A DNA stretch of 32,780 nucleotides from Alphaproteobacteria bacterium (GCA_014237925.1 JABACB010000012.1:1-32780), one strand, 5' to 3'. Counted from the first letter of the stretch, positions 1-32,466 are shown. Program-made: numbers and translations. Notes: a model not told the origin generated them from the letters alone.

Positions 1-704
1 AGCCTCTGCCGCGCGCCCTCCGTCAGAGGAAGTTTGAAACCCAACATCTTTTCGCTCGCACACAACAATCGCTCCAACGCCGCTTCGTCCAATGCCTCCA
101 TCACAAAAACTCGACAGCGCGAGACCAACGCAGCACGCAACGCAAAACTCGGGTTCTCCGTCGTCGCTCCGATCAAAGTGATCAACCCGCTCTCGACGAC
201 GGGCAGAAAAGCCTCCTGCTGCGCACGAGAGAAATGGTGAATCTCATCGACGAAAAGAACAAAACCCTTGTCGCAATGCTCCGCGTCGTGACGCTCCGCG
301 TCGTGACGCTCCGCGTCGTGACGCTCCGCCTCGGCGCGCTGAAAGACGCGCCGCAACTCGGCGACCGAGCCGAACACCGCAGAAAGTGTTTCGAAAGGCG
401 CTTGCTGGTAGCGCGCGAGCAGCCTTGCAAGCGAAGTCTTTCCGCAACCCGGCGGTCCCCACAGAATCATCGAAGGCAAGGACGCTTGCTCGAACAGCAA
501 TCGTCCTAAGGGTGCGTCGGCGGATAGCAGGGCTTCTTGTCCCAGCAGCTGTTGAAACTCTTGCGGTCGCAGACGCTCGGCAAGGGGAGCACGAAGAGGG
601 GGACGAAGGGGAGCACGAAGAGGAGCACGAAGAGGGGCTTCAAGGGATTCTCCGAAAGAGTCCGCAAGGGAGTCTTGATGCGGAGCAGGAGGGCGAGCAT
701 GCAT
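1..704 (-). CDS. rarA: Replication-associated recombination protein A (AAA+ ATPase), 3' end beyond window
   Basis: RarA/MgsA is a clamp-loader-like AAA+ ATPase that acts at stalled replication forks. The 234 visible codons show the family N-terminus (LAERLRP, residues 41-47), Walker A GPPGCGKT (83-90), Walker B LFVDEIH (150-156) and the sensor segment GATTENPSF (179-187); the C-terminal lid and tetramerisation domains lie outside the window. The start is ATG at 704, just after an in-frame TGA, 20 nt downstream of the quinone oxidoreductase gene, so the two are probably cotranscribed. Two in-frame tandem arrays are present: five 12-bp units encoding an APLR-like repeat at residues 23-42, and three 15-bp units encoding AERHD at residues 126-140, inside the AAA+ domain between Walker A and Walker B. 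The identification is firm; the effect of the repeats on function is unknown. Confidence 0.95.
   Translation of the reverse strand, partial: MHARPPAPHQDSLADSFGESLEAPLRAPLRAPLRPPLRAPLAERLRPQEFQQLLGQEALLSADAPLGRLLFEQASLPSMILWGPPGCGKTSLARLLARYQQAPFETLSAVFGSVAELRRVFQRAEAERHDAERHDAERHDAEHCDKGFVLFVDEIHHFSRAQQEAFLPVVESGLITLIGATTENPSFALRAALVSRCRVFVMEALDEAALERLLCASEKMLGFKLPLTEGARQR
285..329. repeat. 15-bp tandem repeat x3 in rarA
   Basis: Three perfect copies of GTCGTGACGCTCCGC (285-299, 300-314, 315-329). On the minus strand they encode AERHD three times, in the AAA+ domain of RarA. Confidence 0.98.
579..638. repeat. 12-bp tandem repeat x5 in rarA
   Basis: Five 12-bp units on the minus strand, each coding for A/P-P-L-R/A, in the N-terminal linker just before the conserved LAERLRP motif of RarA. 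Units differ by only one to a few bases. Confidence 0.93.
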
Positions 705-724
705 CGGTCAAAGCACTCGGAGCA

Positions 725-1746: not shown

Positions 1747-2946
1747 TTAGGGGAGATCGTCGGTACGATAGCCGAAAATCCCTTCCTTAAGAGCTTTTTG
1801 CAGCTGGTCGCCGTGACACGGCATGAAGCGCGAAAACCACGCAGAAAGCGGTTGCAGGACGGGAGCGGTGCTTTGTGCGTCCAGCGCAAGGCTGCGTTGC
1901 AGCAAGGCATAGACGCGCGGGATGTGGCACGAGAGCGCCGTTTTTTCATCGCGCAAGGCGAGGCGTGCGAAAGTACCAAGCACGCGCGCGTGGCGTTGTG
2001 CGCTCCATGCGCGATAGTGCTGCTGAAAATGTTGCTCCGAAAAGGTGTTCTCGGAAAGAATGCTCCGCGCTCCTTTCAGGTAGCCACGAAGCAGGTGTTG
2101 TTGCAGGGAGGGAGCGAGGTCGCGCCGCGCGTCTTCGAGCAACGAGACGAGGTCGTAGGCGGGCGAGCCAAGAACGGCATCTTGGAAGTCCAATAAACCA
2201 CAGCGTTGCAAACTACCATGTTGCAACTCGCAATGTTGTTGCTCGCAATGTTGTTGCTCCGATGGTGCGTGCGGCGTGTTGTCTTGGGCGGAAAGATCGA
2301 TAGGGAGGCGCATCAGGTTGTCGACATGGCAGTCGCGCAACACCAGCACTTCGGGCAGGGGGGGAAGGCTTGTCAGCAACTCGTGCCAGCAGGCTCTCCA
2401 GCTTGCGCTTGTATGTGCTGTTTGCGCCGCGTTCGGGGTTGCATCCAGCGCGGGGATGTAGAAGTCGGCGAACACGGTGCTTTCGTCGCACCAGTCGTCG
2501 ACGGAGAAGGCGGGCAGAAACCGCTGCTGTGCTTGCTCGCGCGTGCGCAGCAGGTGGAGCAGGACGGCGACGGCATCTTCGTAGAGGGGTTTGGGATCTG
2601 CGCCTTGTTCCAACAAATATGTAAAGCTTTCGGAGCCGAAGTCTTCGATCTCCATGAAGCCTTGCTCAAGGTCGGCGTGGAGAATGTGCGGCGCACGCAA
2701 GCCCAAGCTTTGTAGAAATGTGCCGACGGCTTGGAACTGGCGCGGCTTTTCTTTTTGCGGTGGAGCGTCCATCAACAAAGTTGGCGGCAACATAGGCTGC
2801 GATGTAGACGCGCCACTGCTTCTTCTCAGCAAGCGCGTGTAGCAACGGCTGGAGGCGTCGGCTTGGAGCGGGACGAGCGTTGAGTCTTGGTGTCCGTGTT
2901 GTTCTAGAAAATGTCGACGCGCTTGCTCACGCGGGCAAGCAGACAT
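1747..2946 (-). CDS. amgK: AmgK-like N-acetylmuramate/N-acetylglucosamine 1-kinase (APH fold)
   Basis: A 399-residue phosphotransferase of the aminoglycoside phosphotransferase fold (COG3178 type), which in characterised proteins phosphorylates the anomeric carbon of MurNAc/GlcNAc for cell-wall recycling. Family signatures are the N-terminal ADASSRCYTR, the LLMDAPP strand, the catalytic loop LRDCHVDNLM and the metal-binding LLDFQDAVLGSPAYDLVSLLEDARRD. In other alphaproteobacteria this gene often sits beside tsaE and murU; neither is next to it here. Three 15-bp units between the catalytic loop and the LLDFQDA motif add an EQQHC-type repeat (about residues 229-243). The ATG at 2946 is preceded by a 130-nt gap that contains a 14-bp noncoding array. 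It heads the amgK-qor-rarA set. MurNAc kinase activity is inferred from family only. Confidence 0.88.
   Translation of the reverse strand: MSACPREQARRHFLEQHGHQDSTLVPLQADASSRCYTRLLRRSSGASTSQPMLPPTLLMDAPPQKEKPRQFQAVGTFLQSLGLRAPHILHADLEQGFMEIEDFGSESFTYLLEQGADPKPLYEDAVAVLLHLLRTREQAQQRFLPAFSVDDWCDESTVFADFYIPALDATPNAAQTAHTSASWRACWHELLTSLPPLPEVLVLRDCHVDNLMRLPIDLSAQDNTPHAPSEQQHCEQQHCELQHGSLQRCGLLDFQDAVLGSPAYDLVSLLEDARRDLAPSLQQHLLRGYLKGARSILSENTFSEQHFQQHYRAWSAQRHARVLGTFARLALRDEKTALSCHIPRVYALLQRSLALDAQSTAPVLQPLSAWFSRFMPCHGDQLQKALKEGIFGYRTDDLP
2216..2260. repeat. 15-bp tandem repeat x3 in amgK
   Basis: Units 2216-2230, 2231-2245 (CAATGTTGTTGCTCG) and 2246-2260. They encode EQQHC, EQQHC and a diverged ELQHG in the loop after the catalytic DxxxxN motif. 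Confidence 0.95.
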
Positions 2947-3010
2947 CGTTAGGGCAGGCGCAGAGGCTTCAAGGTACGAGAGAAGGGTTTAGGTAGTTTA
3001 GGTAGCGAAT

Positions 3011-3090
3011 CAAGACGCACTTCTCAAGACACATTTCTCAAGACGTACTTCTCAAGACTCACTTCTCAAGATGCACTTCTCAAGACGCAC
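3011..3090. repeat. 14-bp noncoding tandem repeat, about 5.7 copies
   Basis: CAAGACGCACTTCT and close variants start at 3011, 3025, 3039, 3053, 3067 and 3081. The array begins inside the last codons of the small membrane protein gene, whose stop is made by the repeat itself, and fills the gap before amgK. Its period is not a multiple of three. Confidence 0.97.
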
Positions 3091-3396: not shown

Positions 3397-3753
3397 TTAG
3401 GGGGTAGGATTGCTCTGAGAGACGAGGGAGGAAGAGACGAGGGAGGAAGCGTCCTTGTCGCTCGGTTTGTTCTTGGCGAGGCTTTTGAGAACGGTGCGCT
3501 TGAGCTTTTTGGCTTGCTCGGCGAGCTTGGCGTTGCGGTAGCCGAGCAGAAATTCGTCGAGCCCTCCTTTCTTGTCGATCGTGCGTAGCGTCGAGGCGGC
3601 GATGCGCAGGCGGATGTGTCGTTGCAAGATGTTGCTGTAGAGGCGCGTCGATTGCAGGTTGGGCTCGAAGCTACGACGTGTTTTGTTGTGCGCGTGCGAG
3701 ACATTGTTGCCGCGCATGACACGTTTGCCGGTGAGGGAGCAGGCTTTCGACAT
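3397..3753 (-). CDS. rpmB: 50S ribosomal protein L28
   Basis: Begins with the L28 signature MSKACSLTGKRVMRGNNVSHAHNKTRR and continues with FEPNLQ and the RLRIAASTLRTIDKKGGLDEFLL core of this large-subunit protein. At 118 residues it is somewhat longer than most bacterial L28 proteins; the extra part is a Ser/Leu/Val-rich C-terminal tail containing two copies of a 15-bp unit. A strong promoter (TTGACT, 18-nt spacer, TACAAT) ends only 8 nt before the ATG, so the mRNA is predicted to be leaderless or nearly so. No Shine-Dalgarno sequence is visible, consistent with this. The small membrane protein gene follows 14 nt downstream. Confidence 0.97.
   Translation of the reverse strand: MSKACSLTGKRVMRGNNVSHAHNKTRRSFEPNLQSTRLYSNILQRHIRLRIAASTLRTIDKKGGLDEFLLGYRNAKLAEQAKKLKRTVLKSLAKNKPSDKDASSLVSSSLVSQSNPTP
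3420..3449. repeat. 15-bp tandem repeat x2 in rpmB
   Basis: AGACGAGGGAGGAAG twice in succession, encoding the SSLVS-type repeat of the extra C-terminal tail of L28. Confidence 0.95.
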
Positions 3754-5099: not shown

Positions 5100-6139
5100 G
5101 CGGGAGCGGGGAGGAGGTTGATCAATCCTTCGGCGAAGTTTTGCGCGCGGAAGAGCTCGATATCTCGAAGCCCTTCTCCCGCCGTCAGGTATTGTACGGG
5201 GAGGGGTTTTTTCTCTCGTGCCAAAGCGACGAGCGCCCCTGCGCACGCGCTGCTGTCGAGTTTCGTCAGCAACAGCCTGCGAACAGGCACGACGGCGGCG
5301 AACTGCTTCACCTGCGAGCGCAGAGTCTGTCCCAATGTTGCATCCAGGACAAGCCAAAATTCGATGCGCGGCGGCTTGTCCTGCATCGCCGCCTGCTTGA
5401 GAAGGGCGCGCTCGATCTTGCCGAGCTGCTGCATCAAGTTCGCATCCGAGTGTTGTCTGCCCGCCGTATCGATCAGGAGAACGTCGTATCCTTCCTCCGT
5501 TGCATCCTCCGTTGCCTCCTCCGTTGCATCCTCTTCTGCCTTTCCTTGCGTCTTCTTTCGAGCTTGCGCGAGCGCGTGGAAGGCGAGCGCGGCGGGGTCC
5601 GAGTGGCGTTCGGCTGCGACAAGCTCTGCGCCTGAGCGCGTAGCCCAGTCCTGAAGCTGCTCGGTGGCGGCGGCGCGGAAGGTGTCGCCTGCTGCCAGCA
5701 AGACGTTCGCGCCCTGCGCTCGATAGCGCGCGGCGAGTTTTCCCGCCGCCGATGTTTTGCCGCAGCCGTTCAAGCCCAGCAACACGACGACCAGCAGCTC
5801 CTTCTCGCCCCCCTTCTCGCCCCCTTTCTTGTCTCCTTTCCCGTCTCCTTTCTTATCCCGTCGTTCGGAGAAGAGAGAGATTTCCTCGGCTTCGCAGGCG
5901 CGCATCTTTTTGGCGACGAGCTCTCGCAATGCCGTCTGCACCTCCTCCATGCTGTCAGGGTTGCGGAATCCCCTTGTCGCAAGCTCTGTGGCGAGCTCGG
6001 ACGCGCTCTCGTATCCCAAGTCGGCTTCCAGCAACGCCTCTTCGATCAGCTCGCGCGCGGCGGGCGAAAGACGCGTTCCTGCAACACGACGCACGAAGGC
6101 GTTTTGCAAACGTTGTGCACTCTTGTTTAGAGCGAGCAT
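5096..6139 (-). CDS. ftsY: Signal recognition particle receptor FtsY
   Basis: SRP GTPase that docks ribosome-SRP complexes at the inner membrane. Motifs: the N-domain helical bundle (1 to about 110), G1 GLNGCGKTSAAGKL, DTFRAAATEQL, DTAGRQ, the G4 box TKLDSSACAG and the closing GEGLRDIELF. At 347 residues it has no long acidic A domain in front of the N domain, as in many short FtsY proteins. ATG 6139 overlaps the mtaB end by 13 nt and has a weak GGAAGAG upstream. Two in-frame 12-bp arrays are present: a KGDKKGGEKGGEK linker between the N and G domains, and a Glu/Ala/Thr-rich loop just before YDVLLIDTAGR. Confidence 0.96.
   Translation of the reverse strand: MLALNKSAQRLQNAFVRRVAGTRLSPAARELIEEALLEADLGYESASELATELATRGFRNPDSMEEVQTALRELVAKKMRACEAEEISLFSERRDKKGDGKGDKKGGEKGGEKELLVVVLLGLNGCGKTSAAGKLAARYRAQGANVLLAAGDTFRAAATEQLQDWATRSGAELVAAERHSDPAALAFHALAQARKKTQGKAEEDATEEATEDATEEGYDVLLIDTAGRQHSDANLMQQLGKIERALLKQAAMQDKPPRIEFWLVLDATLGQTLRSQVKQFAAVVPVRRLLLTKLDSSACAGALVALAREKKPLPVQYLTAGEGLRDIELFRAQNFAEGLINLLPAPA
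5493..5540. repeat. 12-bp tandem repeat x4 in ftsY (G domain loop)
   Basis: TCCTCCGTTGCA-type units at 5493, 5505, 5517 and a diverged one at 5529. They encode an acidic EEDATEEATEDATEE loop directly before the DTAGR strand. Confidence 0.95.
5801..5860. repeat. 12-bp tandem repeat x5 in ftsY (N-G linker)
   Basis: CTTCTCGCCCCC twice (5801-5824), then three related TTTCTTGTCTCC-type units. They encode a Lys/Gly-rich linker just before the G1 strand. Confidence 0.9.
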
Positions 6140-7574: not shown

Positions 7575-7604
7575 CTTGTCTTGACGCTTCTTGTCTTGAC
7601 GCTT
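7575..7604. repeat. 15-bp tandem repeat x2 between dapF and mtaB
   Basis: CTTGTCTTGACGCTT twice in succession in the 55-nt gap; noncoding. Confidence 0.93.
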
Positions 7605-7621
7605 TTTGGGAGGAGAAGGCG

Positions 7622-8584
7622 TCATGCGAGCAGATGCGTTGTGCCGAAAAAGGCGTAGTCGGCGGGTCCTGTCATGACGACGGGTGCGCTGTCGCTCCGC
7701 CATGCGAGGTCCAAGTCTCCCCCCTCCATGCGCACGCAAACCTCGCGTTGCAACAACCCTCGTCGCACGCCTGCAACCACTGTCGCGCACGCAGCGCTGC
7801 CGCAAGCATGCGTGTTGCCCGCGCCTCGTTCCCAGACGAAAAGTTTGACGGCTCGTCCCCCCTCCTCAGCGCGTGCGAAAGAAATGTTTGCGCCAAAGCG
7901 GAACAGAGGATGTTTCTCCATCTTGATGCCGTGTTGCAACAGGTCTTGTTTCAAGCGCGCGTCAGACTTTTCGGAAAAGAAGACGGCGTGCGGATTGCCC
8001 ATGCTTACGCCGAAAGGTTTGTCGTAGCCCTTCCCGAATTTGTCGTGCGTAAGCGCCAAGGCTTCGCTTCGACAGGGTTTTGTCAAGCCCAGTGCTTCGG
8101 CAGAAAACTTCGGCACACCCATCTCGACGGCGATCATACGCTCCGACAGGCGTTCTGCGTGCAAGCGCTGTCCTGCGACGAATAACGAGAGTGTCCTTCT
8201 GCGGCGGAAGGTTCTGTCGTGGTCGAAGACATAACGCGCGGCGCAGCGCGTGCCGTTGCCGCAGGCTTGCGCTTGCGAAGCGTCGGGGTTGAAGATCGTC
8301 ATGTCGAAGGCGTCTGTTTTGTTCTTGGGTTTCGTCATCACCAGCAGCTGGTCGAAGCCGATGCCGCGGCTCCGCTGTGCTATCCGTTGCACGGCGAGCG
8401 AATCGAGCATGGCCAAGTCATGCTCGATGCTGTCATGCTCGATGCTGTCATGCTCGATGCTGTCATGCTCGATGCTGTTTGTCGCGTGCGTGCCTTGTCG
8501 CGCGTCGATCAGGACGAAATCGTTGCCGAGTCCGTGCATCTTGCAAAACGGCACTCGTGCGCTGTCGTTGCGTGCGAATTTCAT
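7622..8584 (-). CDS. dapF: Diaminopimelate epimerase
   Basis: Cofactor-independent epimerase converting LL- to meso-diaminopimelate for lysine and peptidoglycan synthesis. It begins MKFARNDSARVPFCKMHGLGNDFVLID. Both catalytic cysteines are present, in ACGNGTRCAARYV and in GAGNTHACGSAACATV. 320 residues, longer than typical DapF (about 270-290); most of the excess is a loop after VLIDARQG with four perfect 15-bp units encoding SIEHD. ATG 8584 overlaps the stop of the J-domain gene as ATGA. The dapF-mtaB-ftsY order occurs in other alphaproteobacteria. Confidence 0.96.
   Translation of the reverse strand: MKFARNDSARVPFCKMHGLGNDFVLIDARQGTHATNSIEHDSIEHDSIEHDSIEHDLAMLDSLAVQRIAQRSRGIGFDQLLVMTKPKNKTDAFDMTIFNPDASQAQACGNGTRCAARYVFDHDRTFRRRRTLSLFVAGQRLHAERLSERMIAVEMGVPKFSAEALGLTKPCRSEALALTHDKFGKGYDKPFGVSMGNPHAVFFSEKSDARLKQDLLQHGIKMEKHPLFRFGANISFARAEEGGRAVKLFVWERGAGNTHACGSAACATVVAGVRRGLLQREVCVRMEGGDLDLAWRSDSAPVVMTGPADYAFFGTTHLLA
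8417..8476. repeat. 15-bp tandem repeat x4, perfect, in dapF
   Basis: Four identical units of GTCATGCTCGATGCT (8417, 8432, 8447, 8462) encode SIEHD four times in DapF. The perfect identity suggests recent expansion. Confidence 0.98.
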
Positions 8585-9864: not shown

Positions 9865-12252
9865 TCACGGCTTGCTCGCTTGGTCGCCTGTTGAGTCGCC
9901 CGTTTGAGCGCGCGTCGTTTGGGCGCGTGTCGTTTGGGCGCGCAAGGTCTCGGCGTAAGCGAGCGCATCGAGAAAGGTCTTTTGTCCGTACATCTCGGGC
10001 AAGAGCAACACCTCGCCGGCAGGAGCGAACAGCGCGGTGAAGGGAATCGCGTAGCGGCGATGCTCGCGCAGGAAGGCTGCGATGCGCGCATCGTGCGAAG
10101 TCCAGTCGGCGCGCATCAACACGACGGGCAGCCGCGTCAAGCGTGCGCGCACGGCGGCAGTCTTGTAGACGCGCTGCTCGATCACCTTGCACGACAGGCA
10201 CCAGTCGGCGGTGACATTCACGACAACTAGATTATCAGAAGCCAAGAAGGCGGGAATGCGCTCGGGCGCGAAAGGTTGCCAGACAAGCGCCGCCGTCTCT
10301 TGCGAGGGCGAAACCCCAAGCTTCTGCTTCTCAAGCTTCTGCTGCTGCGTGTTTTCGTTCGGCAAAATGTTCAGCAGGACAGCGACGAGGACGGGGCTTG
10401 TCAAGAGGAGAGCCAACCGTACGGAAGCGAACGCTCGGCGCGGTACACCGCGTGCGTCTGCCTGCTGCTTTTTACGCAAGGCGAGGACGACGAGCAATGT
10501 CGTCGCAGCCAGTATACTGGCGGCGGTGAGCGAGAGCTGTTTTGCGAAGATAGAAAAGAGCCACAGCGAAGCGGCGAGAATGGCGAGCGCGAGAATTTTT
10601 CGTAAAATCTCCGACCACGCGCCAGGGGGAGGCAGGATTTTCGCAACCCTGCGCGGACAAACCGCTGCCAGCAACAGAGGCGTTGCCATGCCTGCGCCCA
10701 TGAGGGCGAACATGAGAAAGACGACGGGAGCCCGTTGCACGACGGCGGCGCTGAGCGCACTGCCGAGAATGGGAGCAGCACAAGGGGTTGCAAGCCAAGT
10801 CATCAGCATGCCCGTTGCGCACTCGCTGCCCCATTCTTTTCTGCGCGAGGTTGTTTCTTCGTTCAAAAAGGTTTTTCGGAATTTCTTTGAGGATTTTTTG
10901 AAAGGAATTTTTGCAGGGGCTTTTTCGCTGTAGGCGGGAAAGGGGAGGGACACGATTCGCCATCCGTCGCAAGCAAGCAGCAGCAGCAGCGCTGCGATCG
11001 AGCCGTTGAAGACGGGCCAGTGGAACTGGAACCCCCAGCCGAGTTTTTCTCCGCCGCTTTTCGCCAGTACCAGCACGAAAGCCAGCAGCAGGAAAGCGAG
11101 CATCATGCCGAGCGCGTTTGCCAGCAAGGCTCGTTGCAACTTGCTGCTTGTCTTGTTTGTTGTTTGTCGTTCTTTGCGGTCTGCGTCGTCGGCGCGCGCG
11201 AGCGAGGTGATCTTGATGGCGAGGACGGGAAAGACGCAAGGCATGGCGTTCAGCACCAAGCCGCCGAGGAAGGCAAGCACCACCAGTCCCAGCATCGAGG
11301 CGGAGCTGGGTAGAAGCGAGCTTGCTGCCTGAGCTTCGAGATGGGTGGAGGATTGGGTGGAGGAGGCGGAGGACGCAGAGGACTCGTAGGGTGAGCGCGC
11401 GAGCTCAGCCGTTGCCAGCACCGCTACGGGGGAGAGGTTGTCGGCGGCAAGGGTGACGCGCACAGAGGTGGCAGATGCGTCGCGTGCAAACCTTCCTTCC
11501 GCCGCAAAGCGCAGCTTGCGAGAGCCTTTCCCTTTCAGCGAGGTCAGCGCGAACAAGCCGCCTTGCTCGGCTGCCGCGCGCTCGACGATGAGACGCGGGT
11601 TGCGCAGAGGTTGCTCGCTCGACCAAGTTCCCTGCAACAAGACGCTCTGCTCCTCTTCGCCTGTTAATGTTAACTCTCCTCCCCCCCCTTCCCCTTCCTC
11701 TGTGGGAGAAGCGACCGGCAAGTAGGTGAGCCGTAGCCCCGCCTCTCGTCTCGATCCTTGTGCCGCTTCTTGTGGCACCTGTCGGAGCAGCGAAGCGATA
11801 AGACGGCGTTCCTGCTCGCCCGCAAGCTCTGTCGTCAGGGTCGTCTCGATCGGCAGACAGACTTGCGCGCAGGCGGCAAAGCTCACCGCAACACGCTCTC
11901 CTGCCTCGAAGGGCGAGCGCGTCGTGAACGGCAGCGCGGCGCGTCCCTCGTAGCCGTAGCTTTGTGCGCCGAAAAGATCGAAGGTCTGCGGAAAAGGCCA
12001 GAGGAAGGAGCTGGCGTTCGAGCGCCAGCTGAGCTCGGTCGGGAAGACATTGACCGTGTTCTTGCGCCACGAGATCTTCCACGAAGGGTTGAGCGAGAAG
12101 AACAACGCACCGCTCCTCTCGCCCGTCTGCAGCAGGCGCACAGAGCCATAGTCGAATTGTTGCGCGCGTGCGGACACGGGGGCAAGGCAGAGCAAAAGCA
12201 TCGCCACGAACAGCCTTCTAGAAGACATCAACGGGCTTGTCACAGGTCTCAT
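9865..12252 (-). CDS. ScsB/DsbD-like protein-disulfide reductase
   Basis: A 795-residue membrane enzyme that carries electrons from cytosolic thioredoxin to the periplasm. Order: signal sequence (RRLFVAMLLLCLAPVSARA); a periplasmic DsbD-N-like domain of the ScsB type (about 25-320, with FAACAQVCLP); a transmembrane DsbD domain with paired cysteines in LNAMPCVFPVLAIKI and LATPCAAPILGSAL; and a C-terminal thioredoxin-like domain with CxxC in TADWCLSCKVIEQ. Between the two membrane halves there is a Lys/Ser-rich insert (KSSKKFRKTFLNEETTS). The C-terminal tail holds three 15-bp units (AQTTR), and a 15-bp pair lies before the thioredoxin domain. ATG 12252 or 12228 could be the start; both leave the signal sequence. 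Followed by the peroxiredoxin gene after 8 nt. Confidence 0.9.
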   Translation of the reverse strand: MRPVTSPLMSSRRLFVAMLLLCLAPVSARAQQFDYGSVRLLQTGERSGALFFSLNPSWKISWRKNTVNVFPTELSWRSNASSFLWPFPQTFDLFGAQSYGYEGRAALPFTTRSPFEAGERVAVSFAACAQVCLPIETTLTTELAGEQERRLIASLLRQVPQEAAQGSRREAGLRLTYLPVASPTEEGEGGGGELTLTGEEEQSVLLQGTWSSEQPLRNPRLIVERAAAEQGGLFALTSLKGKGSRKLRFAAEGRFARDASATSVRVTLAADNLSPVAVLATAELARSPYESSASSASSTQSSTHLEAQAASSLLPSSASMLGLVVLAFLGGLVLNAMPCVFPVLAIKITSLARADDADRKERQTTNKTSSKLQRALLANALGMMLAFLLLAFVLVLAKSGGEKLGWGFQFHWPVFNGSIAALLLLLACDGWRIVSLPFPAYSEKAPAKIPFKKSSKKFRKTFLNEETTSRRKEWGSECATGMLMTWLATPCAAPILGSALSAAVVQRAPVVFLMFALMGAGMATPLLLAAVCPRRVAKILPPPGAWSEILRKILALAILAASLWLFSIFAKQLSLTAASILAATTLLVVLALRKKQQADARGVPRRAFASVRLALLLTSPVLVAVLLNILPNENTQQQKLEKQKLGVSPSQETAALVWQPFAPERIPAFLASDNLVVVNVTADWCLSCKVIEQRVYKTAAVRARLTRLPVVLMRADWTSHDARIAAFLREHRRYAIPFTALFAPAGEVLLLPEMYGQKTFLDALAYAETLRAQTTRAQTTRAQTGDSTGDQASKP
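9902..9946. repeat. 15-bp tandem repeat x3 at the 3' end of the scsB-like gene
   Basis: Units at 9902, 9917 and 9932 (GTTTGGGCGCGTGTC type) encode AQTTR three times in the C-terminal tail, beyond the thioredoxin domain. Confidence 0.94.
10318..10347. repeat. 15-bp tandem repeat x2 in the scsB-like gene
   Basis: AAGCTTCTGCTTCTC followed by AAGCTTCTGCTGCTG, encoding the QQQKLEKQKL linker before the thioredoxin-like domain. Confidence 0.9.
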
Positions 12253-17516: not shown

Positions 17517-17589
17517 CGAGTCTGTCGCGCTCGCGCTTGTGCTTTTTGAGGAGCACGCGCTCGCGCGACAGATTTGCGCGACAGACTCG
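17517..17589. terminator. Long inverted repeat between convergent genes, probable bidirectional terminator
   Basis: CGAGTCTGTCGCGC (17517-17530) is perfectly complementary to GCGCGACAGACTCG (17576-17589). A nested alternative pairs TCTGTCGCGC with GCGCGACAGA at 17563-17572. It lies in the 251-nt gap between the converging mutase and pgeF genes. No strong T tract follows on either strand. Confidence 0.55.
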
Positions 17590-17640
17590 CCTGACAAATT
17601 TGCGCAACCCGAAGGCTTGCCTCTTGCGTTCCATCCGTCG

Positions 17641-17691
17641 ACATTATTCTTCTAGCAACATTATTCCTCTGGCGACATTATTCCTCTATCG
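17641..17691. repeat. 17-bp tandem repeat x3 at the 3' end of pgeF
   Basis: ACATTATTCCTCTGGCG-type units at 17641, 17658 and 17675. The last overlaps the final codons of pgeF; the other two are noncoding. The period is not a multiple of three. Confidence 0.95.
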
Positions 17692-21011: not shown

Positions 21012-22435
21012 GGTCGTAGCGTCGCGCTCGGCAATGTTACGAGCGTTGCGAGCGAGCGCAGGGCGAGCGCGCACAGGGCTGCGACGAAGAGGAGGGTTGC
21101 GACGCCTTGCGCCAGCTGTCCGATCCCTTGCGTGTGTTGCAAGGCGAGGAGGAGGACGGCTTGCGAGCCCTCGTTGCCGCTGCCTGCCAGCAATCCGAGC
21201 GTTGTCGCGAGCATCAACAGCGCGAGGGTGGTCGGCGGCGCTTTTTTGTGCAGGAGCGCCAAGGCGGCGCGCGTGAGCGCCGAGAGGGCGAGCAATGTTG
21301 TCGCCGAGAGGGCGGCGAGGCTTGCTTCGAGCAGCCAGCCCTCGTTCGGGTAGAGCGAGACGAAGGCTGCAAGCAGGGGTTTCAAGCCTTGCTCGTCGAG
21401 CAGCCATGTTTGGCTCAAGACGACGGGAGCTGCCGTCATGCCGACGAAGCCAAGCAGGCAGGCGAAGGCGAGGCAGAGAGAAAGAGCCGTTGCAGCTTTG
21501 CGCGCCGCGCTCGGTTTGGGAACAGCGTAAGGGACGCAGCAGAGCAGGGCGAGCCATCCGAAGGCGGGGCGAAAGATGCCGAGCGTCGCAAGCAGCGTGT
21601 CGGCGTTGATCGAGCTTTCGGTTGCAAGGGGCAAGGAGGCGATCGCGCTCGCCTTTCGGATAGCAACAAGGCACAGCGCGCCGTAGAAGAGCAGCACGCA
21701 GGGCAGCAGCAACAGCAACATCCACGCGATTGCCTTGTTCGGCTGCGGAAAAAACTGCGGCAGAGCCAGCACGAGCAAAAGCACCATGCCAAGGATACTG
21801 ACGAAACTGCTCGCCGTTATTGGCAAGGGGGCGTGTAGGCTTGCGTGCGCGGCTTGATGCCAAAACAGGTTTGCGAGCGTAGGCACAAGGTCGAGCAACA
21901 ACGAGAGCAGGCAACAGAGCGCAAACAGCATCACGCAAACGCGCGCCGTGTTGTAGGCGAGATTGCCTGCAGCAGGATCCCCAAACACGCGCAAGGCAAA
22001 ACGCTCTAACGGAGTTGTCGGGGTTGGCGGGGTTGTCGTCTTGGCGGTTGCTCCTGCAACGCTGCTGCTTTCGCACCACAGGAAGAAAAGGGCGAGGGGA
22101 GCGAAGAGGAAGAGCACGCGCAAGGCTTCGGGCGATTGTCGCACGAGCAGAGTTGCGGTCGTCGCTATCGTCTGGGGCGAGAGCCACAGCGCGAGCAACA
22201 ACAGCACGGGGGCAAGCGGCAACGCGGGCAGCGTGAAAGGAAAGCCGAAAAAGTCGAAAGTCGAGACAGGTTTCCCTGCTGCAAAGGAATCTGCTACGGG
22301 CGAATCTGCTACGGGCGTTCGCGCACGCCTGCGGGCGAAGCTTCCTGCCAGCAGGGAGAGCAGCACCAACGCCGCGCACAGCGCGAGTGCCGTCGGCACG
22401 ACGAGGGACCAAAGGTCGGCGAGCAAAGGTCTCAA
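21008..22435 (-). CDS. Polytopic membrane protein of unknown function
   Basis: A 475-residue, very Leu/Ala-rich protein with about ten or more hydrophobic segments, for example LVVPTALALCAALVLLSLLA near the start, FVSILGMVLLLVLAL and AIAWMLLLLLPCVLLFYGALCL in the middle, and LALLMLATTLGLLAGSG near the end. I do not recognise a family and see no kinase, transport or catalytic motif. It begins at TTG 22435, overlapping the response regulator stop (TTGA), and overlaps xseA by ATGA at its end, so it is translated within the operon. A 15-bp duplication (PVADS twice) lies after the first hydrophobic segment. Position after a regulator suggests a sensor or stress-related membrane function, but that is only inference. 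Confidence 0.75.
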   Translation of the reverse strand: MRPLLADLWSLVVPTALALCAALVLLSLLAGSFARRRARTPVADSPVADSFAAGKPVSTFDFFGFPFTLPALPLAPVLLLLALWLSPQTIATTATLLVRQSPEALRVLFLFAPLALFFLWCESSSVAGATAKTTTPPTPTTPLERFALRVFGDPAAGNLAYNTARVCVMLFALCCLLSLLLDLVPTLANLFWHQAAHASLHAPLPITASSFVSILGMVLLLVLALPQFFPQPNKAIAWMLLLLLPCVLLFYGALCLVAIRKASAIASLPLATESSINADTLLATLGIFRPAFGWLALLCCVPYAVPKPSAARKAATALSLCLAFACLLGFVGMTAAPVVLSQTWLLDEQGLKPLLAAFVSLYPNEGWLLEASLAALSATTLLALSALTRAALALLHKKAPPTTLALLMLATTLGLLAGSGNEGSQAVLLLALQHTQGIGQLAQGVATLLFVAALCALALRSLATLVTLPSATLRP

Positions 22436-23371: not shown

Positions 23372-23707
23372 ATGACAGGACACAAGGCATCGACGGACAA
23401 GCCCCGCCCTCGGCAAGGCTCCCGTCGCCCTGCGCAGGCAGAGCGGCGCTCGACGCTGTTGAGCCGCAACATTCGTATCGACAGACATCGCACCTCCGTG
23501 CGCTTAGAGCCTATCTTTTGGGATATTCTCACCCATGTCACCGAGCGCGAAAACCTTTCGGCGCACAAGGTTTGCACGCAGATCGCCGAGCGCGCTCCCA
23601 ATCTGCCCTTGACGAGCGCGATCCGAATTTTCCTTGTCGCCTACGCATGGCGCGCAGGGTTGCCGTCTGCGCTCGACGCCGTGCGCACAGGAAAACTTAG
23701 CTTGTGA
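23372..23707 (+). CDS. Ribbon-helix-helix (RHH_4) domain protein
   Basis: A 111-residue protein. The second half matches the RHH_4 family seen in alphaproteobacteria: LLSRNIRIDRHRTSVRLEPIFWDIL (ribbon and first helix), then ERENLSAHKVCTQIAER and LTSAIRIFLVAYAWR. The first about 30 residues are basic and disordered-looking. ATG 23372 has GGAGG about 7 nt upstream. It is divergent from the response-regulator operon and shares its 223-nt upstream region, which also holds AGGAGCAAGAAC-like short repeats. Such proteins usually bind DNA as dimers; the target is unknown, and the nearby palindrome is a candidate. Confidence 0.85.
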   Translation: MTGHKASTDKPRPRQGSRRPAQAERRSTLLSRNIRIDRHRTSVRLEPIFWDILTHVTERENLSAHKVCTQIAERAPNLPLTSAIRIFLVAYAWRAGLPSALDAVRTGKLSL

Positions 23708-23739
23708 GACAAATGTGAAAACAAGCGTGGAGACAAATG

Positions 23740-23812
23740 TGGAGCCGAGGGGAGTCGAACCCCTGACCTCTACAATGCCATCGTAGCGCTCTGCCAGCTG
23801 AGCTACGGCCCC
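23740..23812 (-). tRNA. tRNA-Ala (GGC anticodon)
   Basis: Read on the minus strand, it folds as a 73-nt cloverleaf: acceptor GGGGCCG/CGGCTCC with the G3:U70 pair that identifies alanine tRNA, D arm GCTC/AGAGC with AGCTGGCAG, anticodon stem CTACG/TGTAG around ATGGCAT (anticodon GGC), and T arm AGGGG-TTCGACT-CCCCT. The discriminator base is A; CCA is not encoded. It is transcribed alone, with a promoter just upstream. Confidence 0.96.
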
Positions 23813-23940: not shown

Positions 23941-25827
23941 TCACACAGATTTTCTAGCGTCGCTTTTCATGTCCAGCAAACCTTCCAGCTGTTCGATCAT
24001 GCCCTCGATTTCAAGAAGCCCGCGCTGCCAAAAATCCTGCGCCGCAGGGTCGAGACCGAAAGTAGCAAGCAACTCCTTGTAATCACAACTGCCCCCTGCG
24101 GAAAGCAACTTCTCGTAGCACTTCTCGAAATCCGCCTTGCCGTTGCGGTAGAGCGCGTAAAGCACATTCACCAACCCGTCGCCGAAGGCGTAAGCATAGA
24201 CATAGAAGGGAGCATGGATGAAATGCGACACATAGCCCCAGTAGCAACGATAATGCTCGTCGAATCGAAACACATCGCCCAGGCTTTCACGCGCCGTCTG
24301 CATCCACAGGTCGCCGATCTCGTCGCTGGATAGCGGCGCTTCCCTGCGCCGCGCATGCAGCTTTTGTTCAAAGTCGAGGAAGGCTATCTGACGCACGACG
24401 GTGTTGAGCATGTCTTCGATCTTGCCCGCGAGCAAAGCACGTTTCTCTCCAAGCCCGTGCGCCCGCTCCAGCATCAGGTCGAAGGTCAGCTTTTCGCCGA
24501 AGACCGACGCCGTCTCGGCGAGCGTCAGCGGCGTCTGCGAGAGCAGGAAGCCTTGCTTGGCGGCAAGCGTTTGGTGGATGGCGTGTCCCATTTCGTGCGC
24601 GAGTGTCATGACATCGCGCGTCCTGCCGCGATAGCTCATAAGGATAACAGGGTGGGTATCGGGAACGCACGGACACGAGAACGCGCCCGACATTTTGCCC
24701 GCCCTCGGTGCTGCGTCGATCCAAGGGTTGTCGAAGAATCGTCGTGCCAATACGCCCATCTCGGACGAGAAGCCCCCGTAGGCAGCCAGCACCGTCTCGC
24801 GCGCCTCACCCCACGGGATGACGCGCGTCTCGGCGTTCGGCACAGGGGCAAGCCTATCCCAGTAATCGAGCTTCTCGCGCCCCATCCACCGCGCCTTCAG
24901 GCGATAGTAGCGATGCGACAGACGCGGATAGAAGGCGCGCACGCTTTCCACCAAAGCCGTCACGACTTCGCCCTCGATGCGGTTGTCCAAGTTGCGCGCT
25001 TCGATCGGATCGCGGAAGCCGCGCCGCTTGTCCTCCAATGCCTTGTCTTGGGCAAGCGTGTTCGTGATCGTCGTCAGAAGGGGAAGGTGGGAAGCCAGTC
25101 CTTTCCCCAAGGCATGCGCGGCATCGCGGCGAACGCTCGCCTGTTCGTCCGAAAGCTTGTGCAGCACTTCCGACAAGATGACATCTTCCTTCCCGATGCG
25201 AAAGCGCATCAAAGCTTCGCTCTCGTCGTAGAGCGTAATCCAGGCAAGGCGCGCCGTCAGCGACTTCTCTGCAAGCAACGCCTCCATGTCTTCCGAAAGC
25301 TGATACGGCTTGAAACGACGCAAGGCTTGAAGCCACGAGGCGTAGCGCGCCAAGCTCGGATCGTGCGTGCAAGATTCCCTCAGCGCGTCGTCGTCCAAGC
25401 CGTTCAGCTCCAGCGAGAAGAAAAGAACCGACTGCTCAATGTCGGTCAGCTGCTCTTGCAGCCCTTGACGAAAGCGCGCGACCGTCCCCTCGCTCAAATT
25501 CTCCGCATGCTTCAGAAAGGCGAAGACGCCCAAGCGCGCGACACGCTCCTGCAAACGCTCGTACTCGCACACGGCACCCCCCAAGGCTACGGACGAAAGG
25601 GTCGAGAGCCGTCCTTTGTACGCTCGTGAAAACTGCAACGCCCCCTCCCTGACAAGCTGCAAATCCTTCTCTAGCTGCGGATCCTCGATGCCCTTGTAGA
25701 GAGCGTCCAGCCGCCAACAGGGAAGATCGCTCAACTCGGCATGCCCGGCATGCTCGGCATGCTCGGCATGCTCGGCATGCTCGTTTTGCACTGCGTCGTT
25801 GTTCTCGATGGTGCTGTCCGCTGTCAT
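23941..25827 (-). CDS. pepF: M3 family oligoendopeptidase F
   Basis: A 628-residue cytosolic zinc metallopeptidase of the M3B/PepF group that cuts short peptides. The zinc motif HEMGH lies in MTLAHEMGHAIHQTLA, followed by ETASVFGEKLTFDLML, which supplies the third ligand Glu. FSCPCVPDTHPVILMSYRGRTRDV and the C-terminal HFIHAPFYVYAYAFGDGLVNVLYALY are typical of the family. ATG 25827 overlaps the lysK stop as ATGA, so both genes are coupled. The N-terminal tail (about 10-30) carries five 9-bp units (AEH repeated) ahead of the first conserved segment LPCWRLDALYKGIEDPQLEKDL. Confidence 0.95.
   Translation of the reverse strand: MTADSTIENNDAVQNEHAEHAEHAEHAGHAELSDLPCWRLDALYKGIEDPQLEKDLQLVREGALQFSRAYKGRLSTLSSVALGGAVCEYERLQERVARLGVFAFLKHAENLSEGTVARFRQGLQEQLTDIEQSVLFFSLELNGLDDDALRESCTHDPSLARYASWLQALRRFKPYQLSEDMEALLAEKSLTARLAWITLYDESEALMRFRIGKEDVILSEVLHKLSDEQASVRRDAAHALGKGLASHLPLLTTITNTLAQDKALEDKRRGFRDPIEARNLDNRIEGEVVTALVESVRAFYPRLSHRYYRLKARWMGREKLDYWDRLAPVPNAETRVIPWGEARETVLAAYGGFSSEMGVLARRFFDNPWIDAAPRAGKMSGAFSCPCVPDTHPVILMSYRGRTRDVMTLAHEMGHAIHQTLAAKQGFLLSQTPLTLAETASVFGEKLTFDLMLERAHGLGEKRALLAGKIEDMLNTVVRQIAFLDFEQKLHARRREAPLSSDEIGDLWMQTARESLGDVFRFDEHYRCYWGYVSHFIHAPFYVYAYAFGDGLVNVLYALYRNGKADFEKCYEKLLSAGGSCDYKELLATFGLDPAAQDFWQRGLLEIEGMIEQLEGLLDMKSDARKSV
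25739..25783. repeat. 9-bp tandem repeat x5 in pepF
   Basis: GCATGCTCG repeated at 25748, 25757, 25766 and 25775, with a one-base variant at 25739. Encodes HAEHAEHAEHAGHAE in the N-terminal tail. GCATGC is itself palindromic. Confidence 0.97.
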
Positions 25828-28476: not shown

Positions 28477-31400
28477 CTAGCCCTTGCTGGCTGATAGTAG
28501 CAGCGAAGCGTTTCCCCCCGAAGCCGTCGTGTCCTCGCTGACGACGCGCTGCGCTGCCAGCAGGCAAACCTCGTCGTCGAGGCTTAACAGAAGCCGTCGG
28601 CGGTCTGGAAGCGCCGCAAGACGCACGCGCAACTTCCGCCGCTCGACTTCGTTCTCGCCGTCGAACAGGGCGACATGGCAGAGACGCAATCCCTCGTCGA
28701 AGAAGTCCTGCAGAGAAAGTCGCCGAAAGTGACCCTGCGGCGCAAGCGCACCAAGCTCATGCAGTCGAGCCTCTTCGTGCGGGGAGGAAACATCTTCTAT
28801 TTCCCTTGGCGCGCAGACGACGCGATTGCCGAAAGCGAAGGCAACGAGAACTTGTAGCGATAGGAAGTTCTTCTCGCCGCAACAAGCGACGACGCCTTTT
28901 TCTGTCGTGTAAAGCCTGTTGCGTTCGCCCGTCGTGCCGGGCAGGATGCCGTCGTTGGCGTAAGCTTCGTGCGCTCGTGCGAGCAAGCCTCGTGCGCAGG
29001 AACGCGCGCTGGCAGGCTTCCATGCGCGTATCGTCCTTTCCAGCCGAGCAAGCCTTTCAGGCACTGCTGTCCAAGAAGATTGAGAAACATCTTGAGAAAC
29101 ATGTCGAGAAAAAGAGGACGCAGCGCTTTCGGGGGTGGTATCGAAGACACCGATTGCAGGGGCGAGCAAGCTGCGCCATTCCGTCAGCCTTTCGCGCAAG
29201 GGGGGGCGCCAAGGAAGATTGACGGGTAAATCACGGCTGGCGTTGGCGAAGGAAGTGGCGAAGGAAGTGGCGAAGGAGGGCGAGTGTTGTTTGGCGCGCG
29301 AGAGTCGAAGCAAGAGATCGCCTCCCCCTGCTTTCGGACCTGTTCCCGACATCTCCTCGCCGCCGAAGGGCTGACAGCCCACGACCGCGCCGATCTGGTT
29401 GCGGTTCACATAGATATTGCCGCAACGCGCCTCGGCAACAGCCTTGGCGATACGGCTGTCGATGCGCGAATGGATGCCGAAGGTCAAGCCGTAGCCCATC
29501 GCGTTGATGCGCGGCAGAAGACGCGCGCGCTCCCTGTTCTCGTAGGTCTGCACATGCAAAACAGGACCGAAGACTTCGCGCGAAAGCATCTGCGTGTCTT
29601 CGATGCGAAAGATGTGCGGCGGCATCCAAAAGCCTTGCCGCGCCGTGCCGCCAGTCTTGCGCAGCTCCTTGGGCAGAGCCCCTCGATACAGCACGCTCGT
29701 GCGCTTGTCGTGCGCCATAGCTCGACACCACCGCTGTACATTGCTTTGCGCGGCACCGTCGATGAGCGGTCCCATGTCGCTTTCGATGTGCCACGGCAGA
29801 CGGAGTTCGAGTTCGCGCGTTGCCCCGACGAGCATGGGGAGCAGTCTTTTTTCGATATCTTTTTGTACGAAGAGAAGCCTCAAGGCGGAGCAACGTTGTC
29901 CCGAGCTTTGAAAGGCGGAGACGAGAACATCGCGCACGACCTGTTCTGCAAGCGCCGTCGAATCGACGACCATGGCGTTGATGCCGCCGGTCTCGGCGAT
30001 GAGAACGGCGTTGCCGAGAGCGGCGAGCTGGCGATCGATACGACGCGCCGTTTCCGGCGAACCGGTGAAGCAGACCGCTTCGGGCTTGGCGGATGCGATG
30101 GCACCCCTTCCTACGCGTTCTCCCGTGCCGAAGAGGCAGGCGAGAGCGCTGCGCGGCAAGCCCGCACGATAGAGCAGCTTGACGGCGAAATCGGCGATCA
30201 GGGGAGTTTGCTCGGCGGGTTTGGCGAGAACAGAGTTGCCGCAGGCAAGCGCGGCGGTGATCTGTCCGCAGAAGATGGCGAGCGGAAAATTCCACGGCGC
30301 GATACACACGACAAGCCCTCGTGCACGACGTTTGCGTGCCATGAGCTTGGTGCGTGCCTCGCTTGCGTAGAAGCGTGCAAAGTCGACCGCTTCGCGCACC
30401 TCTGCGATGCCGTCCCACAGCGTCTTGCCCGCTTCGCGCGACAGCAGGGCGATCATCTCGTACGCGTTTTCTTCCAGCAAGGCGGCGAAGGTCTCCAAGA
30501 TATTCGCGCGCTCGACAGGGCTTGTTTCCGCCCAAGCCTTGTGGGTCTTGCGCAAGGTTTGACAAGCGCACACGATCTCTTCTTCGGAGGCTTCGCTCAC
30601 ATTGCCTAAGATGTGTCCGTCGGCGGGCGACTTGCAGAGACGCGGAGGGCGTGGCTTCGTCGTGTTTGCGGACGAGTGCGCCATGCCCAAGTGCGAGCGT
30701 GCCTCGTAGATTTTGTCCAAACAGGCAGATGTTTCTTGCAGAAACACTTGTCGTGTGGCGATGTCGTTGAGATTCCAGCCGCGTGCGTTCTTGCGTGGTG
30801 CAAACATGGCGGGGGGCAGAACGATCTTCGGATGCGGAAGGACTTGGGCTTTGCGGTGTTTCAAGACGAGGGCAACAGGCTCTTCGACAAGGGCGCTTAC
30901 GGGAATGCGGCGGTCGAGAACTTGGTGGACAAAAGAGCTGTTCGCTCCGTTTTCCAGCATGCGTCGAACGAGGTAGGCGAGAAGATCTTGGTGGATGCCT
31001 ACGGGCGCGTAGATGCGCGTCGTGATCTCAGGCAGAGTGTTGTTCTTGTTGTGTCGGCGTATCGTCGTGCGCAGGTTTTCGTGCAGCACCTCGCCCATGC
31101 CGTGGATGCGTTGCAGCTCGAAGCGACGCTCGCTTTTTTCTTCTTGAGCGAAGGCGAGGATGGCGGTTGCGGTGTGGGCGTTGTGGGTTCCGAACTGCGG
31201 GAAGATGTGTTGCCGCATGGACACGAGCTTGCGTGCGCAGGCGAGGTAGGAGAGATCGGTCGAGCATTTGCGTGTGAAGACAGGATAACGTTCTACGCCG
31301 AGCGTTTGTGCGTGTTTGATCTCTGCGTCCCAGTAAGCGCCCTTGACGAGTCGAACGGCGATTCTTCGCTGCGATTGTTTCGCGAGTTCAAAGAGGAAAT

Positions 31401-32466
31401 CGAGCGTCGCGTAGGCATTGGTTCGATAGGCTTGCACGACGATTCCGAACCCGTCCCATTTTTTAGGCGATCTCTTTTGTTCGATCGAGTCAAGCTTGCA
31501 GAGGACAGACCCGAGGACGGAGAGCAGGAGGTCGGAGCGATCGGCTTCTTCGGCATCCAATGTGAGAGGTATGTTGGCCTTGTGCGCAGCGTTGACGAGC
31601 GAGGTCAGTCGCGCCACGAGTTCGCTGTCGACGCGGGCTTTCTTGCCGAGCTCGTAGCGCGGGTGGATGGCGGTGAGCTTGACGGAGATCCCGCAGTTGT
31701 CGTGAGGAGAGGTTGTTTGGGAGGCATGGGAACTCAGGCATTCGATCGCGTGGTGGTAGGCTTGGAGATAAAGTTGCGCGTCTTCTTCGCATCGCGCAGC
31801 TTCGCCGAGCATATCGTAGGAGAAGCGATATCCTTGGGCTCGCATGTTTTGCGCGCGTTGGATGGCTTTCGTTATGGTCTCACCGAGGACGAATTGTCCT
31901 CCCATGAGCTTCATGGCCTTAGCGATGGCGACGCGCACGACGGGCTCGCCGAGTCTTTGGACAAGTTTTTGCATCGTCGTGACGATGCCTGTGGTGTTTT
32001 GGAGGTCTTTAAGAATGTGTCCTGTGAACATGAGGCTCCAGTGGGACGCACTCAGGAGGAGGGATGTATGGTGGGCTGTGTTTTTGCGCCATGCTTTGCC
32101 GGTGACTTTGTCCTTGACGAGATCGTCTAGCGAAGGAGTGTCCGGAGTTCTGAGATAGGCTTCGGCGAGGCACATGAGAGCCGTCCCTTCGCGTGACGAG
32201 AAGTCGTATTCGTTGAGAAATTGTTGCATGACACCCGCAGGAGCGTCGCGGATTTTTACAGCGAGGGCTCTGGCTTCACGGGAGACAGATTTTCTGGTGA
32301 ATGCTGTGTGTTCCAGTTGTTGCAGAAGGTTTTGCGCGCAGGTCTCCTCAAGCGGTGTTTGGCGCGTGCGAGCGCGGAGAGCTTCAAGAGTAGAGAGCTG
32401 GGGAGAGAGCTGGGGAGAGGGCTGGGGAGAGGGCTGGGGAGAGGGTTGGGGAGAGGGCTGGGACAT
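28477..32466 (-). CDS. putA: Bifunctional proline dehydrogenase / P5C dehydrogenase (PutA)
   Basis: A 1329-residue enzyme oxidising proline to glutamate via P5C at the inner membrane. The FAD-dependent PRODH barrel (about 180-520) has CGISVKLTAIHPRYE, VVQAYRTNAYATLDFL, RLVKGAYWDAEIK, GTHNAHT and RRMLENGANSSFVHQ. The NAD-dependent ALDH half (about 610-1060) has APWNFPLA, ETGGINAMV (Glu 825) and SSGQRCSALR (Cys 859). The C-terminal domain (1060-1329) includes ILPGTTGERNRLY, as in long PutA types. The E. coli-like N-terminal RHH DNA-binding domain is absent; instead the first 25 residues are a SPQP repeat (five 12-bp units). A second array (SFATSFATSF) sits at 1064-1074, after the ALDH half. No Shine-Dalgarno; promoter candidate upstream. 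Confidence 0.97.
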   Translation of the reverse strand: MSQPSPQPSPQPSPQPSPQLSPQLSTLEALRARTRQTPLEETCAQNLLQQLEHTAFTRKSVSREARALAVKIRDAPAGVMQQFLNEYDFSSREGTALMCLAEAYLRTPDTPSLDDLVKDKVTGKAWRKNTAHHTSLLLSASHWSLMFTGHILKDLQNTTGIVTTMQKLVQRLGEPVVRVAIAKAMKLMGGQFVLGETITKAIQRAQNMRAQGYRFSYDMLGEAARCEEDAQLYLQAYHHAIECLSSHASQTTSPHDNCGISVKLTAIHPRYELGKKARVDSELVARLTSLVNAAHKANIPLTLDAEEADRSDLLLSVLGSVLCKLDSIEQKRSPKKWDGFGIVVQAYRTNAYATLDFLFELAKQSQRRIAVRLVKGAYWDAEIKHAQTLGVERYPVFTRKCSTDLSYLACARKLVSMRQHIFPQFGTHNAHTATAILAFAQEEKSERRFELQRIHGMGEVLHENLRTTIRRHNKNNTLPEITTRIYAPVGIHQDLLAYLVRRMLENGANSSFVHQVLDRRIPVSALVEEPVALVLKHRKAQVLPHPKIVLPPAMFAPRKNARGWNLNDIATRQVFLQETSACLDKIYEARSHLGMAHSSANTTKPRPPRLCKSPADGHILGNVSEASEEEIVCACQTLRKTHKAWAETSPVERANILETFAALLEENAYEMIALLSREAGKTLWDGIAEVREAVDFARFYASEARTKLMARKRRARGLVVCIAPWNFPLAIFCGQITAALACGNSVLAKPAEQTPLIADFAVKLLYRAGLPRSALACLFGTGERVGRGAIASAKPEAVCFTGSPETARRIDRQLAALGNAVLIAETGGINAMVVDSTALAEQVVRDVLVSAFQSSGQRCSALRLLFVQKDIEKRLLPMLVGATRELELRLPWHIESDMGPLIDGAAQSNVQRWCRAMAHDKRTSVLYRGALPKELRKTGGTARQGFWMPPHIFRIEDTQMLSREVFGPVLHVQTYENRERARLLPRINAMGYGLTFGIHSRIDSRIAKAVAEARCGNIYVNRNQIGAVVGCQPFGGEEMSGTGPKAGGGDLLLRLSRAKQHSPSFATSFATSFANASRDLPVNLPWRPPLRERLTEWRSLLAPAIGVFDTTPESAASSFSRHVSQDVSQSSWTAVPERLARLERTIRAWKPASARSCARGLLARAHEAYANDGILPGTTGERNRLYTTEKGVVACCGEKNFLSLQVLVAFAFGNRVVCAPREIEDVSSPHEEARLHELGALAPQGHFRRLSLQDFFDEGLRLCHVALFDGENEVERRKLRVRLAALPDRRRLLLSLDDEVCLLAAQRVVSEDTTASGGNASLLLSASKG
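29239..29274. repeat. 12-bp tandem repeat x3 in putA
   Basis: GGAAGTGGCGAA at 29251 and 29263 with a variant at 29239, encoding SFAT repeats between the ALDH and C-terminal domains. Confidence 0.93.
32398..32457. repeat. 12-bp tandem repeat x5 at the putA 5' end
   Basis: CTGGGGAGAGGG-type units at 32398, 32410, 32422, 32434 and 32446, encoding SPQP repeats at residues 4-23. Confidence 0.97.

Follow-up and report, generated by a model that had tools for sequence, protein, structure and literature searches.

The window analysed here, a stretch of 32.8 kb from an alphaproteobacterial genome, carries short tandem arrays in many of its housekeeping genes, and the underlying excess of short duplications is common to all five sampled members of the genus and reaches far beyond the window. 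The best explanation, and a highly probable one, is a frequent tandem duplication that acts genus-wide and is filtered by the reading frame. The window is contig C33 of the source assembly G000 (1.97 Mb, 409 contigs, 86 % complete, 3 % contamination). For comparison, we used four relatives of the same genus (G001-G004, with G002 as the sister species), one further member of the same order (G005) and 24 other Alphaproteobacteria genomes. The sampled sequence comprised about 514 kb of G000, roughly a quarter of its 1.97 Mb with many small contigs (read as N) omitted, 76-270 kb for each of G001-G004, 115 kb of G005 and 578 kb in total for the 24 other genomes. All assemblies of the genus are fragmented metagenome assemblies with a completeness of 64-86 %, and what is recorded are the standing arrays of one metagenome-assembled genome per species.

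Searching the window with TRF resulted in 78 rows at a score of at least 30. After removal of overlaps, 36 arrays with a score of at least 50 remained, which cover 5.2 % of the window, compared to 0.0 arrays in first-order Markov sequences serving as null. This confirmed the many short arrays reported in a preliminary description made from the sequence alone. Each array consists of head-to-tail copies of a local unit, as in VNTR-type arrays, and the copies are frequently identical. Ordinary bacterial VNTRs and microsatellites are also head-to-tail arrays with a copy number that is likely to vary, but here conserved housekeeping genes are affected genome-wide, the periods form a narrow class and the whole genus is involved. 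The period was divisible by three in 31 of the 36 arrays, with 15 and 12 bp being the commonest. All clean arrays of other periods (14, 13 and 17 bp) are located between called genes, and the remaining two (23 and 25 bp) contain indels and are weak. For a strict count, we considered only perfect tandem duplications of 11-17 bp, of which the window contains 13 (0.45 expected at the background rate). Coding and intergenic DNA were separated using an in-frame hexamer gene model, which recovers the Pfam-supported genes of the window. The features are as follows:

278..333: 15-bp unit in 3.7 copies, (AERHD)n, in frame in an AAA ATPase (rarA-like) fragment, gene on the minus strand
582..635: 12-bp unit in 4.5 copies, 5' end or upstream region of the AAA ATPase gene
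2227..2259: perfect 15-bp duplication, EQQHC, in frame in the APH-family kinase gene (amgK-like)
3010..3090: 14-bp unit in 5.8 copies, intergenic, beside but outside rpmB, not a multiple of three
3418..3449: perfect 15-bp duplication, SSLVS, in frame in the C-terminal extension of ribosomal protein L28 (rpmB)
5493..5541: 12/24-bp array, in frame in ftsY
5800..5854: two adjoining 12-bp arrays, GGEK and GDKK, in frame in ftsY
7575..7608: clean two-copy 15-bp duplication between the mtaB-like gene and dapF
8417..8478: 15-bp unit in 4.1 copies, 100 % identical, (SIEHD)n, in frame in dapF
9901..9943: 15-bp unit in 2.9 copies, in frame at the C-terminus of the scsB-like gene
12625..12727: 24-bp unit in 4.3 copies, (KVASQTAP)n, in frame in the N-terminal extension of yqgE
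14479..14554: 15/30-bp array, in frame in mlaA, mostly missing in the sister species
15677..15708: 15-bp duplication in galU, single copy in the sister species (locus L072)
15746..15804: 12-bp unit in 4.9 copies, C-terminus of galU, where the sister species has a 9-bp array of another unit
16170..16202: 12-bp array in the phosphohexomutase gene
16334..16373: another 12-bp array in the same gene, one 12-bp copy lacking in the sister species
16768..16805: 15-bp unit in 2.5 copies, LLQNSVLQDSVLQDD, mutase loop, one copy in G002, with other units forming independent arrays in G003 and G004
17563..17605: 13-bp array, intergenic
17641..17688: 17-bp array, intergenic
19470..19504: 9-bp array, C-terminus of xseA
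19524..19581: 15-bp unit in 3.9 copies, (PSADP)n, C-terminus of xseA
22287..22317: clean two-copy 15-bp duplication, PVADS, in frame in a gene without Pfam match, absent in the sister species
23706..23744: 12-bp array directly next to the 3' end of tRNA-Ala, not found in the sister species
25735..25783: 9-bp unit in 5.4 copies, (EHA)n, in frame at the N-terminus of the M3 peptidase, no such array in the sister species
29244..29277: 12-bp unit in 2.8 copies, 100 % identical, SFAT, in putA
32392..32462: 12-bp unit in 5.9 copies, (SPQP)n, N-terminus of putA

Pfam matches support most of the genes named in the preliminary description, namely the AAA ATPase fragment, the APH family kinase, L28, FtsY (SRP54), an MtaB-like radical SAM protein, DapF, a DsbD-like ScsB, DUF179 (YqgE), MlaA, a GalU-like protein, the phosphohexomutase, XseA, the M3 peptidase and PutA. 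DUF2335 was not confirmed, and the 14-bp array beside rpmB is located outside the gene, which instead carries a 15-bp duplication. The assertion that units are unrelated between loci held: similar pairs made up 16 of 4092 for 12-bp units and 5 of 1702 for 15-bp units, compared to 7 and 2 after shuffling. Rickettsia palindromic elements likewise form in-frame insertions in many unrelated genes, but they are related mobile elements of about 150 bp encoding a conserved peptide (PMC10969869), whereas the units found here are unrelated local copies, mostly of 9-30 bp, and thus do not belong to this class.

The strict count yielded 39.1 perfect duplications of 11-17 bp per 100 kb in G000 (201 in 514 kb) and 8.9, 11.5, 21.0 and 33.6 per 100 kb in G001-G004, compared to 2.6 in G005 and 1.38 in the 24 other genomes (8 in 578 kb). 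None was found in the 249 kb of 15 further loci fetched with the mutase as query. Standing duplications of 11-16 bp in G000 therefore reach about 28 times the background, and shorter classes are not raised. The unusual density suspected at the outset is thus a property of the whole genus and is not typical of related Alphaproteobacteria. TRF arrays of 9-30 bp gave a comparable picture, with 6.1 per 10 kb in G000, 1.9-6.1 in G001-G004, 1.4 in G005 and mostly 0-1.6 in other genomes of the class; the maximum of 2.75 among the latter comes from a genome with 71 % GC, in which few of the arrays pass 90 % identity. A literature search, restricted to open-licence papers, found no matching earlier report. 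A close counterpart is another alphaproteobacterium with an exceptional content of tandem arrays, Ehrlichia ruminantium, described at the time as exceeding all bacteria reported so far in this respect, with slippage given as the cause (PMC3287509). Its 1.516-Mb genome contains 201 TRF rows with a mean period of 139 bp, covering 6.3 % of the genome, and the published table corresponds to 1.3 rows per 10 kb for E. ruminantium and 0.19 for E. coli (PMC3287509). Using the same TRF settings, we obtained 423 rows in 515 kb of G000 (8.2 per 10 kb, 3.6 % of the sequence), which is about six times as many rows per kb, with a mean period of only 20 bp.

The excess is confined to a narrow length class of about 11-16 bp with a sharp drop at 17 bp. 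Perfect duplications in G000 were distributed over the periods as follows: 38 of 9 bp, 7 of 10 bp, 12 of 11 bp, 83 of 12 bp, 15 of 13 bp, 10 of 14 bp, 55 of 15 bp, 10 of 16 bp, 2 of 17 bp, 6 of 18 bp, 2 of 19 bp, 1 of 21 bp and 3 of 24 bp. The other genomes pooled contributed six of 12 bp, one of 15 bp and 0-1 for each remaining length, which limits the excess by this count to about 10-16 bp. Periods of 5, 7 and 8 bp were close to the Markov expectation in G000; periods of 6 and 9 bp exceed it in other genomes too, and the 9-bp class of G000 is barely above theirs. A bump at 24-30 bp in the TRF data probably reflects doubled units. The rise does not concern tandem repeats in general, a point on which we depart from the preliminary description. 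Intergenic duplications pooled over the genus numbered 8, 14, 9, 15, 8, 10 and 2 for lengths of 11 to 17 bp, and since they spread over 11-16 bp, there is no intrinsic preference for multiples of three. By the same token, 15 bp, singled out earlier as the commonest period, is indeed among the commonest in the window together with 12 bp, but it is not special, being one of the two in-frame lengths within the size range.

Coding DNA showed a very different length spectrum. In G000, 103 of 105 coding duplications of 11-17 bp were in frame (12 or 15 bp) and two had a frame-breaking length (11, 13, 14, 16 or 17 bp), whereas 16 of 42 intergenic duplications were multiples of three and 26 were not. 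Expressed per 10 kb, in-frame lengths amounted to 2.26 in coding and 4.76 in intergenic DNA and frame-breaking lengths to 0.04 and 7.7, respectively. The same pattern was seen in G004, with 23 in-frame and no frame-breaking duplications in coding DNA and 5 and 11 in intergenic DNA. Coding duplications are almost exclusively 12 or 15 bp long, or other multiples of three, because other lengths shift the frame. Hence, duplications arise everywhere, genes lose the frame-breaking products and protein tolerance filters the rest. This is in agreement with the process first proposed; the accompanying statement that coding periods are always multiples of three applies nearly without exception within genes, and frame-breaking lengths do occur between them. 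Relative to intergenic DNA, about half of the in-frame duplications survive in genes. Among the residues encoded by the arrays, D, N, P, K, Q, E and S are overrepresented and W, Y, F, V and L underrepresented. Arrays become more frequent towards both gene ends and also occur in loops; tolerance explains the amino-acid bias. An asymmetry of purines and pyrimidines in the units (0.36 vs 0.25) was not significant between genes (p = 0.16) and is probably due to codon choice.

The comparison with the sister species revealed how quickly the arrays change. A region of 13 kb is syntenic with locus L072 (G002:C155, reversed) at about 76 % nucleotide identity and contains 18 of the window arrays, almost none of which recurs in the sister; the corresponding site there usually holds a single copy or nothing. 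Two or three copies of the unit in the window compare to one in the sister at 15677, 16334 and 16768. In the mutase loop, G000 has LLQNSVLQDSVLQDD, the arrays of G003 and G004 consist of KQELI and IIKKD, respectively, and G002 and G005 have no array. At the C-terminus of galU, the repeated unit is 12 bp long in G000 and a different one of 9 bp in G002. The arrays are thus independent local duplications at the same tolerant sites in different species. Between species, each represented by one genome, arrays differ at almost every site. As copies are often identical and almost no array is shared with the sister, array turnover is fast.

We considered several other sources of the arrays. Errors of metagenome assembly or binning might be suspected because the assemblies of the genus are fragmented and their smallest contigs read as N, but such errors would not respect reading frames only inside genes (103/105 vs 16/42), which excludes them as the main source. 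Furthermore, the excess was seen in five separate assemblies of the genus and not in other fragmented assemblies of the class, and the orthologues in the sister assembly are single copy, making an artefact extremely improbable. Some target-site duplications fall in an overlapping length range, so that the arrays might be scars of mobile elements or copies of a spreading palindromic element. However, the units of different loci are unrelated, the copies adjoin without intervening sequence, their length is variable (11-16 bp) and 32 clean duplications revealed no boundary motif, and we regard this origin as scarcely credible. Selection for variable, disordered protein segments, as in contingency or antigenic variation, would fit the disorder-promoting residues of the arrays and their position at termini and in loops. 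It is nevertheless very unlikely, since the arrays are denser between genes than within them and are found in cytoplasmic housekeeping enzymes such as FtsY, DapF, MutL and DnaE. Duplications might also form at a normal rate and be retained through a small effective population or a weak deletion bias, and the coding density of in-frame lengths, about half the intergenic one, does suggest weak purifying selection. Retention should raise every length, though, and only about 11-16 bp is raised; the identical copies and the near absence of arrays shared with the sister also point to fast turnover. Together, the narrow length class and the fast turnover argue for formation over retention, which is quite unlikely as the cause.

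A more serious competitor is slipped-strand mispairing between short direct repeats, raised by a defect in mismatch repair or proofreading, which had initially been offered as a possible cause. Many arrays have at least three copies, and perfect duplications in two copies frequently run into degenerate older ones (flank identity about 0.5), so expansion by slippage surely contributes, and a third of the clean duplications have a junction overlap of at least 4 nt. We therefore inspected the replication and repair genes. mutS, mutL, polA, recJ, dnaE and dnaQ are present, with intact key motifs where these were inspected: the MutS motifs (GDFYE, Walker A and B) are intact in G000, G001 and G004, MutL of G000 has its ATPase motifs, and the DnaQ exonuclease motif and the RecJ motifs were recognized. 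DnaQ and DnaE themselves carry arrays, yet are not lost. Among the replication and repair genes examined, none was lost specifically in the genus and none was visibly broken. Two candidates were discarded. The genus lacks SbcD, but so do nearly all genomes of the class tested, which makes it uninformative, and an insert in the PHP domain of DnaE is an unlikely cause, as G002 has the trait although the insert was not observed there. Homopolymers of at least 7 nt occurred in G000 at 52.9 per 100 kb (52.8 expected, order-3 Markov) and dinucleotide runs at 48.8 (46.2 expected), both comparisons being weak evidence because several other genomes lie below their own expectation; duplications of 5-8 bp were not raised relative to other genomes. 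Loops of 11-16 nt are not known as substrates of bacterial MutS. With repair genes present and short microsatellites not raised, a mismatch-repair defect is disfavoured, and slippage provoked by such a defect is an unlikely primary source.

The junctions provide hints on how duplications are founded. In 62 two-copy duplications with unrelated flanks, the overlap was 0-2 nt in 40 and at least 4 nt in 21, compared to about 59 and about 1 expected without any homology. As 40 of 62 junctions overlap by 0-2 nt, founding duplications often need little or no homology; a minority of them, and later array expansion, can use it. Each unit is a copy of sequence that the site already had. We infer from the standing excess a high rate of formation through an error of DNA repair or replication. 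A short product of strand displacement or gap filling, about one repair patch long (11-16 nt), might be kept and ligated rather than trimmed, the candidate intermediates being a 5' flap that is retained or a staggered nick that is filled in. After the second copy has arisen, arrays often grow further, and the longer ones would expand by ordinary slippage. Length and weak homology make such a flap or fill-in step plausible, if not quite probable, and variants of slippage rank next.

Flap-endonuclease mutators, i.e. yeast rad27 and E. coli polA 5' nuclease mutants, have tandem duplications of tens of bp as a main class of mutation and may resemble the genus in this, but their spectra are broader and their duplications are flanked by repeats. 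In contrast to these mutators, the PolA flap-nuclease motifs (DAxGKSFR, EADD, SSDKD and GDxSDNxPG) are present in G000, G001 and G004, where the pattern for the first aspartate motif of the 5' nuclease was unmatched. A search for Ku (PF02735), on which fill-in and blunt joining usually rely, found it in none of the five genus members and not in G005, and although the genus assemblies are 64-86 % complete, the five absences agree. Both the intact PolA motifs and the absence of Ku count against a flap or fill-in step, and the 21 junctions with at least 4 nt also fit slipped mispairing or hidden multiple rounds. In animals and plants, staggered or paired nicks give rise to tandem duplications via fill-in and end joining, a pathway that depends on Ku80 and ligase IV (PMC5730883). 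It shares with the flap or fill-in step the duplication of a protruding local segment with little junction homology and differs from it in this dependence on Ku.

A further reading, which we put forward only tentatively and consider rather unlikely, is that the lineage has an enzymatic process of its own, which would use a physical ruler of about 11-16 nt to copy sequence in tandem at random sites. Such a process would depend neither on loss of mismatch repair nor on homology-driven slippage. If true, it would represent a previously undescribed bacterial mutational mechanism with steady in-frame insertions into conserved proteins. Among small insertions, short tandem duplications form a major class. 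Their origin is disputed between slippage and nick repair (PMC5730883). A genus with a roughly thirtyfold excess that ends abruptly near 16 bp, and with intergenic DNA as a clean control for selection, makes the question of their formation testable: one would expect the responsible gene throughout the genus and a length limit that corresponds to an enzyme's footprint or patch size. At the same time, protein insertions in progress are visible in essential enzymes.

At the tRNA-Ala gene of the window, we observed a 12-bp array (a short head-to-tail tandem repeat, window 23706-23744) adjoining the 3' end of the gene, and this array is missing from the sister species (G002). The features considered here in the genome containing the window (G000) and in three relatives of the same genus (G001, G002 and G004) are as follows, with contigs given as genome:contig.

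Window 23739-23812: tRNA-Ala gene
L119:17159-17283 (G000:C66): dnaE PHP-domain insert, a 12-bp NPEA-type array in G000
L116 near 577-1590 (G000:C222): dnaQ
L024:5135-7276 (G000): mutL
G000:C333, G001:C11, G002:C307, G004:C15: recJ
L029 (G000:C360), from 382: long arrays with a 198-bp period

The PHP domain of DnaE carries an insert of about 35-40 aa in three members of the genus (G000, G001 and G004), and no such PHP-domain insert was seen in DnaE of G002. In DnaQ of G000, the C-terminal tail beyond the exonuclease domain is rich in arrays (SKQESKTE repeats), and a long open frame is likewise present at this position in G002.

Several arrays also lie within the MutL linker of G000. The usual endonuclease motif of MutL is DQHAAHE; it reads DAHAAHE here, as taken from the G000 sequence only. 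RecJ of the genus scored under the family cut-off, yet its motifs are intact, and the open frame of 650-828 aa exceeds the length found in most relatives.

The 5.2-kb contig L029 has 36% GC and a composition unlike the remaining sequence, and it may stem from contamination or encode a repeat protein.
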